Below the pieces are notes generated by a model. That model did not search any database. It saw only the letters and a list, made by a program, of their open reading frames with translations, and was not told where the DNA came from. From positions 1-64,000 of the forward strand of contig JACQXX010000136.1 in assembly GCA_016208495.1 (NCBI GenBank): a stretch of 64,000 bases of DNA, given 5' to 3'. This document shows, one piece after another, positions 19,989-55,510 of this stretch. Position numbers and translations under genes: made by a program. Source of the stretch: Acidobacteriota bacterium (lineage in GTDB: Bacteria > Acidobacteriota > Blastocatellia > Chloracidobacteriales > Chloracidobacteriaceae). Every line of letters begins with the position of its first letter. Within the stretch, counting starts at the first letter, position 1.

Positions 19989-20227
19989 GGGAGTCGGATG
20001 GAAATATCATACCATCAGGGTTCAGGGTTCAGGGTTCAGGGTTCAGAGCCAGATACTCCACGTTGAGTGGTACCCGCCAGTTCCCCAGTCTTCATCTTGA
20101 GTGGGATCAGTCAACTCATCGCCGAACCAGTCTTCATCTTGAGTGGGATCAGTCAACTCATCGCCGAAACCCTGAACCCCGAACCCTGAACCCGATTTCA
20201 GTGGGATTTTATTTTCTTCTGGGTCCC
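19989..20227 (+). mobile_element. GGGTTCA-flanked element, copy G1
   Basis: The 239-bp element starts GGGAGTCGG and ends CTGGGTCCC (short inverted ends) and is bounded on both sides by TTA (19986-19988 and 20228-20230), a likely 3-bp target duplication. Inside, tandem GGGTTCA units on the left face TGAACCC units on the right around a core containing a 42-base tandem duplication (20085 and 20127). The same element occurs inverted at 45990-46378. It has no credible gene and is inserted in the T tract of the preceding terminator. Confidence 0.78.
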
Positions 20228-21970: not shown

Positions 21971-22201
21971 TTATACCAGTTTGTAGTCAGTATTGGCTTC
22001 CAAATGGGTATAGCTTGGGTGCCGGGTTGGGAGGGATGTCACTGTTTTTTGCACTGTTTGATAGAGCGGATCAACCGGCATCTGGTCGCCTGCCTGGCCC
22101 AGATATTCCTGAACAAGCTTCGCCAGTGGCCGGTAAATTCCCAGCAACGTACCGCCAATATCGAAAAAAATCCATTCTGCCGAGAGGTGTGAGTGGTTCA
22201 T
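21971..22201 (-). pseudogene. Truncated HAD-family hydrolase (N-terminal fragment)
   Basis: Only 76 codons remain. The start carries HAD motif I as IFFDIGGTLL (D14 nucleophile position), followed by a helical cap start (YRPLAKLVQEYL). Motifs II-IV and the rest of a normal protein of about 220 residues are missing. The frame ends in sequence (about 21975-21994) matching the terminal motif of the GACTACT elements, TACCAGTTTGTAGTCAGTA, so the gene seems to have been cut by insertion or deletion at such an element. The retained start suggests recent loss; activity is not expected. Confidence 0.7.
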
Positions 22202-27310: not shown

Positions 27311-28492
27311 TTAAAGACATTCAACCGCGAGCGCGACCGCATTGCCTCCGCCAAGGCAGAGGGAAGCGACACCACGTTTGGCACCACGGTCTTTCAGGGC
27401 GTGCAACAGTGTGACCAGCACACGGGCACCGCTGGCACCAATCGGGTGACCGAGAGCAACCGCACCGCCGTTGACATTAACTTTGGCTGGATCGGCGCCG
27501 ATTTCACGAGTGACGGCGACAGCCTGGGCGGAAAATGCTTCGTTGAGTTCAAACAAATCCACGTCATCGAGCTTCCAGCCAGCTTTGGCAATCACTTTTT
27601 TCACGGCTTCGACCGGGGCCATCATGACCAGTTTCGGATCAACACCGCTCATGGCCTGGGCGACAATGCGCGCCATCGGCGCCCGACCAAGTGCTGTGGC
27701 CTGGTGTTCTGATGTGACGACAACGGCGGCGCCGCCGTCATTGATGCTGGAGGCATTGCCGGCGGTAACGCTTCCATCCTTTTTGAAGGCCGGTCTGAGT
27801 TTGACCAGACTGCTGGCGGTGGTGTCGGCGCGTGGGCCTTCGTCGGCGCTAAACACAATCGGATCGCCTTTTTTCTGCTGAATTGAGACTGTTTGAATTT
27901 CGGTTGTGAACTTCCCGGCGCTGGCGGCAGCGACGGCTTTGGCGTGTGAACTGGCGGCAAAATTGTCCTGGTCTTCGCGGGTGACGCTATAATGCTCGGC
28001 GACATATTCACCGGTATTGCCCATGTGCCAGTTGTCAAAGGCGCACCACAACCCATCCTGGATCATGGAATCAATGATTTCACCGTGTCCCAGGCGGTAG
28101 CCATCGCGGGCCCGCTGGAGAAGGTATGGAGCATTGGTCATGGATTCCATCCCGCCGGCAACCACAAACTGGGCGTCTCCAGCTTGAATGGACTGCGCTG
28201 CGAGCATCACCGAACGCAGCCCGGAACCGCAGACCTGATTGACGGTTAACGCGGCGACCGTGGTCGGACATCCGGCGCCGAGTGCTGCCTGACGAGCCGG
28301 GTTCTGACCCAACCCAGCCTGGAGCACATTGCCCATGACGACTTCGTCAACCTGGGCGGCATCAATGCCAGCCCGTTCAATGGCGGCACGGACTGCCAGT
28401 GCGCCTAATTCCGGCGCGCGAAATGATTTAAGACTTCCTTGAAACTTGCCGATTGGCAAACGAACTGCACTTAGAATGACTGGATAACTCAT
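27311..28492 (-). CDS. Acetyl-CoA C-acetyltransferase (thiolase)
   Basis: At 393 residues this is a full-length type II thiolase. The catalytic residues are C88 ([11 protein letters not shown], acyl acceptor), H349 ([12 protein letters not shown]) and C379 (SLCLGGGNA, general base). Thiolases condense two acetyl-CoA to acetoacetyl-CoA, or cleave 3-ketoacyl-CoA in beta-oxidation. Length and the NHMG loop fit acetoacetyl-CoA thiolases (AtoB/PhaA), but chain-length preference cannot be read from sequence. No other beta-oxidation or polyhydroxyalkanoate gene is adjacent apart from the degenerate crotonase at 44.8 kb. A GACTACT element lies just upstream. Confidence 0.93.
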
Positions 28493-28522: not shown

Positions 28523-28800
28523 CCATAGTCAGTAGTCAGTAGTTGATGAGTCAGTAGTCAGTAGTTGATGAGTCAGTGGTCAGTAGTCAGTAGACAAAAC
28601 CCGGATCGTTGAATCCGTGGAATTCTTAAAAAGAATTGTTTCTAAATAACTCAAATCGAACCAAATAAGCTTGACACAGGTTCCAGGACTCCAACACTCG
28701 ACTACTGACTACTGACTACTGACTACTGACTACTGACTACTGACTACTGACTACTGACTACTGACTACTGACTACTGACTACTGACTACTGACTACTGAC
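28523..28800. mobile_element. GACTACT-flanked element, copy D1
   Basis: Left arm AGTCAGT-type words (to about 28593) face a right arm of about 14 tandem GACTACT units (28700-28800). Between them is a 106-base core that recurs, about 85% identical by eye, in copy D2 at 52.6 kb. The core holds a small palindrome (AATTCTTAAAAAGAATT) and a -35-like TTGACA. The right end is seven bases from the glgC stop codon. Confidence 0.75.
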
Positions 28801-28807
28801 GAATTAT

Positions 28808-30085
28808 CTACACCACTGTCCCATCTGGAACAACAGCGCATTTCGGGATGATGATGATGCCATCCCGGATGACGTAATTTTCAGCCGTGGCTTCCTGAAC
28901 GCCTTTGTCATTTAACAACTGGACGTTATTTCCAATGCGGGCATCCTTGTCAATGATGGCTCGCTTGATGGTACAGTTGTGACCAATGCCGATATTTGGC
29001 TGGTTGGTTTCTTTATTGCGGCGCATTTCATCAATTGATTCATAATCATCCGCACCCATCATCAACACATGGTCGAGCCGGGAGCCGCTTTCAATGCGGC
29101 TGCGGATTCCAACCACGGAGCGTCGGATGATGGCTTCGTTGATGATGCAGCCTTCACAGATAATGGAGTCATGCGTTTGAGCATTGCGAATCTTGGTGCC
29201 AGGCAGAAACCGTGGCCGGGTGTAGATTTGCTTGCGGGTGTCAAAGAAATTGAAGCGGGGCAACACATCGGTGAGTTCGATATTGGCCCGGAAAAAGGCT
29301 CCAATCGTTCCGATGTCTTCCCAATACCCTTTGAACAGATAACTGCTCACTTTATAGTTATGAATTGCTGTTGGAATCACCTCGCGGCCAAAGTCAATTC
29401 GATCCTGCTGGTTGAGCAAGTCTTCGAGCACCTGCATGTTGAACACGTAAATCCCCATGGAGGCCAGATAGGGCCGCAATTCAGCTTCTTCGGGTGACAG
29501 TCCCATCAGTTCCGTATTGACGCGCATGCTTTCCAGCGCCTCACCTTTGGGTTTTTCCTTGAACTCGACGATTTTTCCGGTGTCGTCAACTTTGAGCAGG
29601 CCAAATTCCGAGGCTTCTTCAGGCGGCACCGCCGTCACTGAAACCGTCACATCAGCGTTGGCGTCCCAATGGGCATTGATGAATTTGGAATAATCCATTT
29701 TGTACAGGTGGTCACCCGACAAAATGATGATGGTGTCAGCCCCGACATCTTTGATATGACGGAAGTTCTGCCGAACGGCATCCGCCGTGCCTTGAAACCA
29801 GTGCGGGTTGTCAGGGGTTTGTTCGGCGGCCAGAATATCCACAAACCCCGAGGAAAACTGACTGAAGCGAAAGGTTCGGGCAATGTGGCGATTGAGTGAA
29901 GCCGAGTTAAATTGCGTCAGGATGTAGATTTTGATGATTCCAGAATTGATGCAATTACTTACCGGTATATCAATTAAGCGATACTTCCCGCCAAGCGGAA
30001 CGGCGGGTTTTGATCGTTCGTGGGTGAGAGGAAAGAGCCGCGTTCCTTGACCGCCTCCCAAAATCACAGCCAGTACATTGTCCAT
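28808..30085 (-). CDS. glgC: Glucose-1-phosphate adenylyltransferase (ADP-glucose synthase)
   Basis: GlgC makes ADP-glucose from ATP and glucose-1-phosphate, the committed step of glycogen synthesis. The N-terminus has the nucleotide-binding [12 protein letters not shown], then [20 protein letters not shown], the substrate region [10 protein letters not shown], and a C-terminal left-handed beta-helix with hexapeptide repeats ([21 protein letters not shown]). The Met at 30085 is chosen because the family begins just before the nucleotide loop; an upstream in-frame Met would add 38 unrelated residues. GGAGG lies 12 bases upstream. It is divergent from recG. No other glg genes are nearby. Allosteric activator specificity is not predictable here. 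Confidence 0.95.
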
Positions 30086-30230
30086 AGAGAAGAGATGCCT
30101 CCAGAAAAAAGATGCGTGGATTCGTGAACGGAGCTTGGGTATTGTTGGAAAAACTGAGACGCTCACCTGATCGGATGATTGGGCTGCATCCTTTACCATT
30201 CGCCTTTACCTGTCAAGGAAAAGAACAGAA

Positions 30231-38055: not shown

Positions 38056-38057
38056 AA

Positions 38058-38223
38058 GGGTTTAGGGTTCAGGGTTCAGGGTTTCAAAACAGAAAAATGC
38101 TTTGTTTGCTACCAGCAGACTTTGCAGCATTTCAAGATCTAAACTTCGAAACCCTGAAAATGTTTAACCTTATGACCCCTGGTTTCCAAACCCTGAACCC
38201 TGAACCCTGAACCCTGAACCCTG
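38058..38223. repeat. Facing GGGTTCA / TGAACCC arrays with a short core
   Basis: GGGTTCA units start four bases after the Uma2 stop (38058-38083), and TGAACCC units (38190-38223) end five bases from the stop of the caspase gene. The core between them is about 105 bases and is unlike the core of G1/G2. Confidence 0.72.
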
Positions 38224-38228
38224 ATTTC

Positions 38229-45989: not shown

Positions 45990-46378
45990 GGGACCCAGAA
46001 GAAAATAAAATCCCACTGAAATCGGGTTCAGGGTTCAGGGTTCAGGGTTCAGGGTTCCTAATCCCCCCGGATGTTGTGGGGTAAGCTCAAAAATGAATCC
46101 AAAAGCCCTAAAAATGGCCTGTTTTGAGCTGTTTTACCTGTCACCCACAAAAATGTGGTTTAGCTAAGTCCTTTGTTTTCAACATAAGACTAATCACCCC
46201 ACAAAATCCGGGGGGATTAGCAGGGTTCAGGGTTCAGGGTTTCGGCGATGAAGCAACTGATCCGACGCACGATGAAGACTGGGGAACTGGCGGGTACCAT
46301 TCAACGTGGACTATTTGGCCCTGAACCCCGAACCCCGAACCCTGAACCCTGATGGTATGATATTTCCATCCGACTCCC
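45990..46378 (-). mobile_element. GGGTTCA-flanked element, copy G2, inserted in R3
   Basis: This is the inverse of G1: it starts GGGACCCAGAAG, ends GGATGGAAATATC-complement and GACTCCC, and is bounded by TTA at 45987-45989 and 46379-46381, the duplicated target. It contains one copy of the 42-base unit that is doubled in G1 and is itself interrupted by a 163-bp element. Confidence 0.82.
46058..46220. mobile_element. 163-bp element with 25-bp terminal inverted repeats, nested in G2
   Basis: CTAATCCCCCCGGATGTTGT (46058) is mirrored by ACAAAATCCGGGGGGATTAG (to 46220): 24 of 25 terminal bases match. It interrupts a GGGTTCA array with at most one duplicated base. No coding capacity. Confidence 0.85.
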
Positions 46379-50146: not shown

Positions 50147-50265
50147 GGGTGACGGGGTGACAATGTGACAGGATGACAGGGGGACAAGGTGACAATTGTC
50201 ATTTGGTCACCTTGTCACCTTGTCATTTGTCACCTTGTCATTTGTCACCTTGTCATTTCATCACG
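50147..50265. repeat. GTGACA/TTGTCACC facing word array
   Basis: GGGTGAC/GGGACAAG-type words on the left face TTGTCACC/TTGTCATT words on the right, centred near AAGGTGACAATTGTC (about 50190). The right side runs into the last codons of the PilM-like gene. Confidence 0.7.
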
Positions 50266-52573: not shown

Positions 52574-52882
52574 TTATAGTTTGTAGTTAGTAGTCAGTAG
52601 ATGATGAGTCAGTAGTCAGTAGATAAAACCCGGATTGTTGAATCCGTGGAGTTCTTGAAAAGAATTGTTTCTAAATGACTCAAATCGAATAAAATACACT
52701 TGACAGATACTTCAAAACCCCAACACTTGACTACTGACTACTGACTACTGACTACTGACTACTGACTACTGACTACTGACTACTGACTACTGACTACTGA
52801 CTACTGACTACTGACTACTGACTACTGACTACTGACTACTGACTACTGACTACTGACTACAAGCTGGTACTACAAGCTGGTA
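52574..52882. mobile_element. GACTACT-flanked element, copy D2
   Basis: Left arm (TAGTCAGTAG words), a core nearly the same as D1 (GTTGAATCCGTGGA; AAGAATTGTTTCTAAAT), then about 19 tandem GACTACT units (52729-52860). The right end TACAAGCTGGTA occurs twice and touches the secretin stop codon. Confidence 0.78.
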
Positions 52883-55441
52883 TTATTGTTGTCCGCTCTG
52901 TCGTGGACCAATGGCCGTAATGGTTGGAATCGGATTATTGATGATTGGCACTGGTTGCTGATCAGCGCCGAAAATTTCGATCATATCAAACCCGATATCG
53001 GCTGGACCGGGGCCAATGACCTGAAAATCAATCACAATGAGTTGTCCGGCTGCCGCAATGGAGCCAAGGTTTGGGCTGAGTGATGTTTTGACAAACAATG
53101 AAGAGCCATCGTCACGCTGGTCAAATGGTCCATTAAACAATCCGCCATCTCGGATACTAATGGGTTTCACCACCGCCGAGTTATAGTGGATGTAAAAGGC
53201 CGCCGATGAAATTTTGACCTGTGGGGAACTGACAATGACCGCCAGATTGACAATGCTCCCGACTGCAGGCCGGATGGATGGGGCGATGACTGGGGTCAGT
53301 TGCACGGGGGCTGATGGTTGAGCCGGGTTCTCTTTGGACGGGGGATTTCCATCGTTTGGATTTGGGTTGGTTGGCGGGACAGCCGTTTCGTTGTTGGGCA
53401 GAACTGTTGGTGTATAGGTCTGGATGTTTGAGTTTTGAGGATTGGTCTGTGACACCGGGACCGTTTGTGGGCGGACGATTCCATCACCCTGTTTCACGCC
53501 CTGGAACTCAGCTTTTGACTGATTGGTGCCTTTGGCTGGGGCATAGGGCGATTGATTTTGCTGGTTTGAAGGCACCTGCTGACGACCTTGTTCAGCTTCT
53601 TTTTGATCTTTCAGGTCTGCCTGCTGAGTCAGTTCGAGCAAACTCAACTTGCGACCATATCCTTGAGCGCCATTGGGGCCAATCTGGAAATCGAGCGGGC
53701 CAAAGGTCATTTTCTCGTCTTCTTCACTGACGGCGCCACCGCGCAGGATGTGTGGCGTCACGGCAATTAAAATATAGGTTGCATTTTTGCTTTTCACAGG
53801 GGTTGAAAAGAGGTTGCCGATACCTGGAATCAAACTCAGGACAGGGATTCCACGGCGGGAGTTTGAATCATCCTGACGCATAATGCTGGCGGCAATTGTG
53901 GTTTGTCCCTCACGCACTCGTGCGACACTTTTTACTTTGCGTTGAGTAAAGGTTGGCGTTAGCGATTCAGAGGTTGAGGCCACCACGCCTGAGGATTCAA
54001 CACTCAGGGTCATCTGAACCAGATCGTCAATCACTTTGGGTTTAATCGAAATATTGAGACCGACATCGTTGTACTGAACCTGATTGACCCCGCCAAAGAG
54101 AGAGTTATTAAAGTTGTTGTTATTGTTGGGGTTATTGTTGTTGTTGTTATTGTTGAACGACGGGATTGAAGCCGTTTGGATCGGGACTTTCTGACCGACG
54201 TTGACGGTGGCTTCTTCACTTTCAAACGAATGCAACTGGATTTGGGCCAGGAGCTTGGTGTTGCCGCGCGATTGCAAGAAACTGAAGGTCGTCGGCGGCA
54301 AAACCAGCGCCGTTCCCAGTGGGCCAAAAATTCCAGTCGCCGAAGTATTGCGCAATCCGCTTTGGGCAACTCCGCCTAGATTCAGCAGCGAAGCCTGGTT
54401 GCGGCCAGTGCCTGAGTTGAACTGATTCCCAATTTGCAGCAAATCGTCCTGAGAGACTTCATAGATATTGACGTCCATGACGACTTCCGCCTGGGGTTTA
54501 TCAATACTGGCAATGAGTTTCTGGATGATGTCCAGGTTTTCTGGCGAATCCCGGACCGTCAGCGTGTTATTTTGGGTATTTTGAGCGACTTGTTTCCCGG
54601 CACCCAGCATTTGGGTAATCAGGGTTTGGACATCCTGCAGTTTCGCGTTCCGAATGTAGAACGTTTTGAGCATGCTGGTGTCATACCGCGCTGCCAGTTG
54701 TGGATTGTTTTTGGGTCCGACCAGAATCGTCCGCCGCCCGACCGGGTAAAACGCCAGGTTGTTGGAATCGAGCACGATTTCCAATGCCTCGGCATACGTG
54801 ATGTTTTTGAGCGAAAGTTTGGATTTAACACCGACCGGCTGTTTGGCCTGGGCATCAAAGACAACATTAAAGTTAATAAATGAAGCCAGTTGCAGGATGA
54901 TATCTTCAACCGTGCGCTCGGTAATCACGATGCTGTCGGCGATTTTGGGTGCCGCTGGGGCGGCATAGTCCATGACCTGTTTGTTTTTGTCGGAAACTTT
55001 CTGATACGGGTCAGGGTCGCCGTTTGCCAAAGGCGTAATCCCTTGTTTCAAAAGCATTTCCTTCATTTTGGCCTGGGCCTGTTCATTGGTCGGATCATAG
55101 GTGTAGGCTTGTTTATAGGCCATGTAAGCACTTTCATAATCTCCCTGTGCGACCAGCATCCGGGCACGGTCCATAAACATCAACGACGCATTTGACACGC
55201 AACGCAGGTAGTGCAGTTCATATTCGGCATTTCCTGGATCTTCGCGCAGCGCCAGACTGAACTCTTCAGCCGCTCGATCCCATTCTTTGGTCGCCTCATA
55301 TCTGAGCCCGGTCTTGAAATATTTTTTTCCATTAAAGGCGAGGGCGGTGCTGCCGCCTAACAGGTTCAAAACCAGCAGCAGACAAAGCAGGTGACAGGCT
55401 GCACGGTACAGTCGGTATCGAAAAGAACATCGTTGATTCAT
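52883..55441 (-). CDS. Type II secretion secretin (GspD/PilQ-like) with a C-terminal cohesin-like domain
   Basis: The 852 residues comprise a signal peptide, TPR repeats (about 35-150: RYEATKEWDRAAEEFSLAL; YESAYMAYKQAY), a secretin/TonB N-domain (about 190-265), an N1-type domain (DVQTLITQMLGAG), the secretin beta-barrel (about 400-600; VPVLSLIPGIGNLF and the ending TYILIAVTPHILRGG), a Gln/Asn/Pro-rich linker and a cohesin-like domain (about 720-845; VNLAVIVSSPQVKISSAAFYIHYN). A poly-Asn stretch sits in a barrel loop. Secretins form the outer-membrane channel. Cohesin-like domains elsewhere bind dockerins or aid surface attachment. ATG at 55441 with GAGG upstream is preferred over a TTG six codons earlier. 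Confidence 0.92.
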   Translation of the reverse strand: MNQRCSFRYRLYRAACHLLCLLLVLNLLGGSTALAFNGKKYFKTGLRYEATKEWDRAAEEFSLALREDPGNAEYELHYLRCVSNASLMFMDRARMLVAQGDYESAYMAYKQAYTYDPTNEQAQAKMKEMLLKQGITPLANGDPDPYQKVSDKNKQVMDYAAPAAPKIADSIVITERTVEDIILQLASFINFNVVFDAQAKQPVGVKSKLSLKNITYAEALEIVLDSNNLAFYPVGRRTILVGPKNNPQLAARYDTSMLKTFYIRNAKLQDVQTLITQMLGAGKQVAQNTQNNTLTVRDSPENLDIIQKLIASIDKPQAEVVMDVNIYEVSQDDLLQIGNQFNSGTGRNQASLLNLGGVAQSGLRNTSATGIFGPLGTALVLPPTTFSFLQSRGNTKLLAQIQLHSFESEEATVNVGQKVPIQTASIPSFNNNNNNNNPNNNNNFNNSLFGGVNQVQYNDVGLNISIKPKVIDDLVQMTLSVESSGVVASTSESLTPTFTQRKVKSVARVREGQTTIAASIMRQDDSNSRRGIPVLSLIPGIGNLFSTPVKSKNATYILIAVTPHILRGGAVSEEDEKMTFGPLDFQIGPNGAQGYGRKLSLLELTQQADLKDQKEAEQGRQQVPSNQQNQSPYAPAKGTNQSKAEFQGVKQGDGIVRPQTVPVSQTNPQNSNIQTYTPTVLPNNETAVPPTNPNPNDGNPPSKENPAQPSAPVQLTPVIAPSIRPAVGSIVNLAVIVSSPQVKISSAAFYIHYNSAVVKPISIRDGGLFNGPFDQRDDGSSLFVKTSLSPNLGSIAAAGQLIVIDFQVIGPGPADIGFDMIEIFGADQQPVPIINNPIPTITAIGPRQSGQQ

Positions 55442-55510
55442 AACTTTCCTCAAAACCAAACAAAAATATAGTGAGTCATCTCAAGATCAAACAAAAATGG
55501 TGAGTCGCCT

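Follow-up and report, generated by a model that had tools for sequence, protein, structure and literature searches.

Seven-base repeats are over-represented in bacteria, for reasons that have yet to be explained (PMC4692102). As set out in the same paper, GGGAATC heptamers of Xanthomonas occur as convergent array pairs 70 times in Xcc and 75 times in Xac, and both these and the GGGGA(C/T)T heptamers of Nostoc are intergenic, lie nearer to the 5′ neighbour gene, are rare between divergent genes and are of unknown function. The general arrangement of the locus described here, convergent heptamer pairs near the end of the upstream gene, is already known from Xanthomonas (PMC4692102), with which the repeat family analysed below (the core family) shares the inverted heptamer arrays, the intergenic position near a stop codon and the rarity between divergent genes. 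However, the Xanthomonas and Nostoc unit is G-rich, with quadruplex potential, and typically occurs in runs of four, whereas the GACTACT unit found here has no G run and reaches 30 pure units in the right arm; moreover, the passages of that paper describing the Xanthomonas type mention neither a conserved core nor a target duplication, whereas here a core recurs at least 62 times. The TAACTGA arrays of Beggiatoaceae are likewise abundant and intergenic, some of them overlapping stop codons, but they comprise two to six units, lie mostly before start codons and, in the passages concerned with them, are described with one inverted case and no mention of a core (PMC4679880).

Likenesses to mobile elements are of a different kind. 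BrickBuilt of Porphyromonas gingivalis is also a bacterial MITE of limited host range, intergenic and equipped with an expandable tandem array, but its 23-bp unit forms a single internal array between leader and tail, whereas the 7-bp unit here occupies both terminal arms and the core is central (PMC4596501). The eukaryotic elements FB, Galileo and Tm1 likewise place a core between unequal terminal inverted repeats composed of variable numbers of tandem short units (Tm1: PMC3169594). As described there, Tm1 has 9-bp target duplications and, in some members, a putative transposase, whereas the core family mostly has no duplication and its transposase was not found; the core family is also far smaller than these foldback elements, and the eukaryotic group serves as an analogy only. 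REP/RAYT repeats are, as here, small, extragenic and palindromic, but according to their description the hairpin is a palindrome of 20–40 bp (PMC3733652), whereas that of the core family derives from arrays and has no adjacent Y1 transposase gene. Neither a recurring core nor a link to a MITE end was found for such arrays in print among open-licence papers.

Two related elements in the window

The window, that is, the whole 64-kb stretch of DNA analysed, contains two elements, D1 (28526–28800) and D2 (52574–52885), in which a common core of about 106 bp is flanked by facing GACTACT arrays. Their features, and those of the adjoining genes, are as follows.

27311–28492, minus strand: thiolase gene (Pfam) downstream of D1, its ATG ~34 bp from the D1 left-arm end
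28526–28593, no strand assigned: D1 left arm, composite 22-bp units of the inverted word, (AGTCAGTAGT)n
28594–28699, plus strand: D1 core, ~106 bp, found at least 62 times in the genome
28700–28800, plus strand: D1 right arm, pure GACTACT, 14.4 units
28808–30199, minus strand: glgC-like gene (Pfam: NTP_transferase, GLGC beta-helix), which stops 8 bp away from the right arm of D1
52574–52576, no strand assigned: TTA, read from the sequence as a candidate 3-bp target duplication (TNA) on the left of D2
52577–52622, no strand assigned: D2 left arm, TAGTTTGTAGTTAGTAGTCAGTAG..., a decayed form of the TACCAGTTTGTAGTCAGTAG end
52623–52728, plus strand: D2 core
about 52728–52860, plus strand: D2 right arm, pure GACTACT, ~19.0 units
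52857–52882, plus strand: D2 outer end CTACAAGCTGGTA in two copies (13-bp duplication), from the sequence
52883–52885, minus strand: TTA, both the candidate right target duplication of D2 and the TAA stop of the secretin gene (sequence, Pfam)
52883–55459, minus strand: secretin gene (Pfam), at whose TAA D2 ends exactly

An earlier, sequence-only reading of this DNA had described a shared core of about 106 bases, right arms of about 14 and 19 GACTACT units, left arms carrying the inverted word and, for both copies, an end at a stop codon, all of which measurement bears out: the two cores are 85% identical across 122 bp, both right arms are 100% pure, and the left arm of D1 is partly arranged as 22-mers (AGTCAGTAGTCAGTAGTTGATG). 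A CRISPR, which that reading had set aside, is rejected here too, the 7-mers running head to tail without spacers rather than as longer direct repeats with unique spacers. TTA is seen by eye on both sides of D2 and is a candidate target duplication.

Genomic distribution and conservation of the core

Only two copies had been recognized previously, which is correct for the window and not for the genome: a core pattern of 27 bases (up to three mismatches) gave 62 matches in the source genome (8.38 Mb, 177 contigs) and none with the reversed control, so that the genome-wide count proposed in the sequence-only reading did reveal further cores. This number is a lower bound, and BLAST gave 41 matches with 40 of 95 candidates scored. 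The pattern GACTACTGACTACTGACTACT gave 784 overlapping matches (control 0). The core pattern had no match in the genomes of 57 relatives, the source genome being the sole representative of its genus among the genomes searched. The core was likewise absent from the plasmids and phages searched; GACTACT arrays occurred in six viral contigs and the core in none, and neither the core nor the B-end pattern (see below) matched a genome-contig collection, which may omit the source genome.

Up to 20 kb around core copies was then sampled, giving 61 stretches (1,139,655 bases), in which a profile search found 73 core matches, which include half-cores separated by insertions or sample cuts. Alignment of 59 of the 61 full-length matches (omitting L071:88-205 and the insertion-bearing L071:8407-8535) gave a mean pairwise identity of 0.838 with a maximum of 0.975, no two cores being identical. 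The elements end in AGTCAG...CTGACT, occasionally extended outward to TACCAG. Thus defined, the family has the traits of a MITE in its terminal inverted repeats, its many dispersed copies and its lack of space for a coding gene, and the earlier description of a conserved core with facing, length-variable arrays can be kept for one dispersed element.

Some cores have themselves been interrupted. Two other MITE-like insertions, at L075 10048-10246 and L082 10047-10151, lie in the same core region, one of the pair having ends TACTACAGCGAGGTTT and a CTAA duplication, the other ends TAG[AC]TTTTCAGA and a TA duplication.

Structure and length of the arms

In core orientation, the left arm consists of AGTCAGTAGT... 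interrupted by TTGATAAG or TTGATGAG (median 40 bp) and the right arm of (GACTACT)n, with 1–30 pure units and, in some copies, GACGACT and GACTCCT variants. The elements therefore show the foldback trait, terminal inverted repeats built of tandem repeats that vary in number. The comparison of core conservation with arm length, suggested in the sequence-only reading, separates the two arms: pure right arms are longer where the core score is higher and core divergence lower (Spearman 0.59, p = 3e-6, n = 53), and left-arm length is unrelated to the core score (0.01). The truncated cores of stretches L063, L120 and L072 are broken at short words that also occur in the arms, which is consistent with slippage or template switching. 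In eight contigs (C138, C56, C32, C92, C97, C75, C172 and C59) core copies have arrays at the contig end, so that arm lengths are probably underestimated. Such arrays at assembly breaks provide a ready marker and should vary between strains.

Element B and the ends of the core family

An outward search found TACCAGTTTGTAGTCAGTAG beyond the arms of some core copies. This end is also part of a second element, here called B, of ~102 bp and with a different core, homology between the core and element B being limited to the heptamer and a 10-base match (E 0.008). The ends of element B are TACCAGTTTG and CAAAATGGTA, and its end pattern occurs at 244 places in the source genome and at none in the 57 relatives. 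The triplets on either side are the same in 30 of its 46 full-length copies (2000 shuffles: mean 11.8, maximum 23), and TNA stands at both sides in 37. Element B is a clean MITE with the GACTACT heptamer in one end and TNA target duplications; duplications of this form are known from IS1031-type elements of the IS5 family. A single B end, TTA followed by TACCAGTTTGTAGTCAGTA, lies at 21974 of the window, and at L113 3453-3574 what remains of a B copy is joined to a right core half, which looks like a B insertion at a TAA in the core.

Traces of the same end are seen in the core family. The outer TACCAG of element B, in register (at most one mismatch), was found at 14 of 121 core-family junctions, versus a single instance across eight control offsets combined, and at 8 of these 14 it is preceded by TNA, versus a background of 7.6% (p = 2e-6). 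Two copies have in-register TACCAG-like ends at both sides; the triplets of one differ (L068: TAA, TCA) and the other is without TNA (L107). Most core-family junctions pass from AGTCAG or CTGACT directly into unique DNA, and at these ends no target duplication above shuffles was detected. Flank matches yielded no usable empty site within the source genome, the matches falling in other repeats or in a single duplicated gene end.

As candidate sources of a transposase, PF13586 gave no match, and PF01609 gave two places whose ends do not match those of the elements; an autonomous partner sharing the element ends was thus not found in the two Pfam families searched, in a draft assembly that may lack one. 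A REP/RAYT system was also rejected, none of the nine places with a Y1 transposase having a core or B match nearby.

Taking these results together, we hold on balance that the repeat represented by D1 and D2 is non-coding, dispersed, non-autonomous and of a mobile type, with a foldback design and terminal arrays that grow by slippage. We infer movement of the core family, for which neither an empty site nor a transposase was found. In the predicted course of events, a transposase acting in trans, since lost from the source genome or not found in it, would have mobilized the copies. Insertions would have survived chiefly where they fell immediately downstream of a stop codon, and the element end can itself provide TAG. 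The arms, the right one above all, would then have been lengthened and shortened by replication slippage, probably with the help of arm-to-arm hairpins. The account does not require the element to have a function of its own, and it offers a testable route to mirror-image heptamer pairs, with a transposon end first and slippage second. A single heptamer here connects stop codons, the end of a MITE that transposes and a further element present in at least 62 copies.

Heptamer arrays beyond the core family

The chief rival of the foldback reading, which we consider rather unlikely, reverses this order: inverted heptamer pairs would arise and persist behind genes as simple repeats, and the core would have spread later by recombination or gene conversion without ever transposing. 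It draws on the abundance of heptamers of many kinds. In the 1.14-Mb sample, picked around core copies, TRF found 465 arrays of period 7 and 6 of period 6, and the source genome contains many other heptamer families; its core-free contigs (those without a 27-base core match, their zero cores being so by construction) have 217 heptamer arrays per Mb, compared with 257 of other heptamers in the relative G001, 109 in G026 and none in G003 and G011. The earlier view that the arrangement is unlike ordinary microsatellites was accordingly half right, given these families and the paired inverted heptamers near gene ends in Xanthomonas (PMC4692102), which also serve this rival as a precedent. Of the 39 pairs of neighbouring arrays in G001, 23 are inverted, 1 is direct and 15 are otherwise arranged, mostly around unlike loops, so that arms can exist without a conserved core; the lack of a target duplication at most core-family ends points the same way. 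Slippage alone, however, does not produce the inverted partner, the cores have always one orientation relative to the arms and a nearly constant junction phase, and the heptamer is shared with element B, a MITE that transposes.

In a 1.23-Mb set, 107 of 163 GACTACT-type arrays adjoin the core, 43 adjoin element B and 13 neither. Judged from their printed flanks, 11 of these 13 lie beside a third repeat, TGCCAGTTAAG...CTTAACTGGCA, a further one lies where a contig ends, and the last was created by the sample cut between L113 and L114. The third repeat is found inside or beside heptamer arrays, AACCACT ones included (L071, L085, L074, L120, L063, L100, L111 and L075:4593-4735).

Placement behind stop codons

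For the context counts, genes were called with an author's codon-usage caller, not taken from annotation, and copies with a profile score below 60 were removed, leaving 68 of the 73 matches. None of the 68 lies inside a gene; the flanking genes are tandem for 40 copies, convergent for 14 and divergent for 4, and the other 10 are at stretch edges. A stop codon lies within 15 bp of 54 of the 68 stop-side junctions, compared with 5% (length-weighted) or 15% (one per gap) of random intergenic points; measured to the first TCAG, 57 of 75 are within 13 bp. The stop codon is located within the arm at 14 of 75 stop-side junctions, and 34 of the 75 stops are TAG (all called genes: TGA 291, TAA 228, TAG 169), indicating that the element itself can supply the stop codon.

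This placement is an argument for a selected 3′-end hairpin, transcribed behind the stop and stabilizing, terminating or attenuating the mRNA as proposed for REP, with selection keeping it in place, an alternative that we regard as distinctly improbable. In its favour, element B is less stop-biased (10 of 24 close; Fisher p = 0.0014), and whole D1 RNA folds at -128 kcal/mol, far better than shuffles (z = -12.65) because the arms pair. Other families also adjoin stops, with stop-side junctions within 15 bp in 17/33, 18/37, 16/24 and 13/18 cases for AACCCTG, AACCACT, AAGAATG and the octamer AAGGTGAC, respectively, and in 31/47 for the heptamer arrays of G001; for AGGGATG arrays the figure is only 1/14. 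A conserved hairpin, however, agrees poorly with arms that co-vary neither in unit type (Spearman 0.26, p = 0.15, n = 32; not significant) nor in length (0.09), with the absence of covariation in the core and with the core-free contigs, where only 10 of 39 stop-side junctions of heptamer arrays are close to a stop; in addition, purging of insertions elsewhere would give the same stop bias.

The core as a possible RNA or promoter

The sequence-only reading had also suggested that the core carries a promoter or an RNA, in view of a palindrome and TTGACA. Both motifs are present, TTGACA being almost invariant across cores that contain two small palindromes, and neither is supported as a signal. 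The D1 core alone folds no better than shuffles (z = -0.18), and the RNAalifold consensus of 59 cores reaches -1.14 kcal/mol. The proposed check of the fold by covariation found none in the 59 aligned cores, the two named palindromes being paired in 93.5% of cells versus 93.3% in shuffles (127 of 500 shuffles reached the observed value). There was no Rfam match within the window and no match to a sigma-70-type promoter in D1; one terminator-like match lies on the minus strand of the D1 core. A small RNA gene or promoter, for which only the near-invariant TTGACA and the palindromes speak, is therefore rejected as very improbable.

A possible wider class of heptamer elements

Returning to the foldback reading, we would suggest, quite tentatively, that the core family may belong to a bacterial counterpart of foldback elements, a class with several heptamers in two genera (those of the source genome and G001). 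Inverted heptamer arms at stop codons would define it, and cores would be exchangeable; slippage on the hairpin would renew the arms, so that the heptamer would drift in each lineage.

Facing pairs are also made by AACCCTG, AACCACT, AAGAATG and the octamer AAGGTGAC. Within the window, facing AACCCTG arrays with loops of 77–121 bp occur at 20015–20193, 38057–38224 and 46221–46352, the loops at 20047 and 46242 being apparently related and in opposite orientation, and facing octamer-type arrays (GTGACA / TTGTCACC) lie at 50147–50258, just ahead of the end of an open reading frame at 50261.
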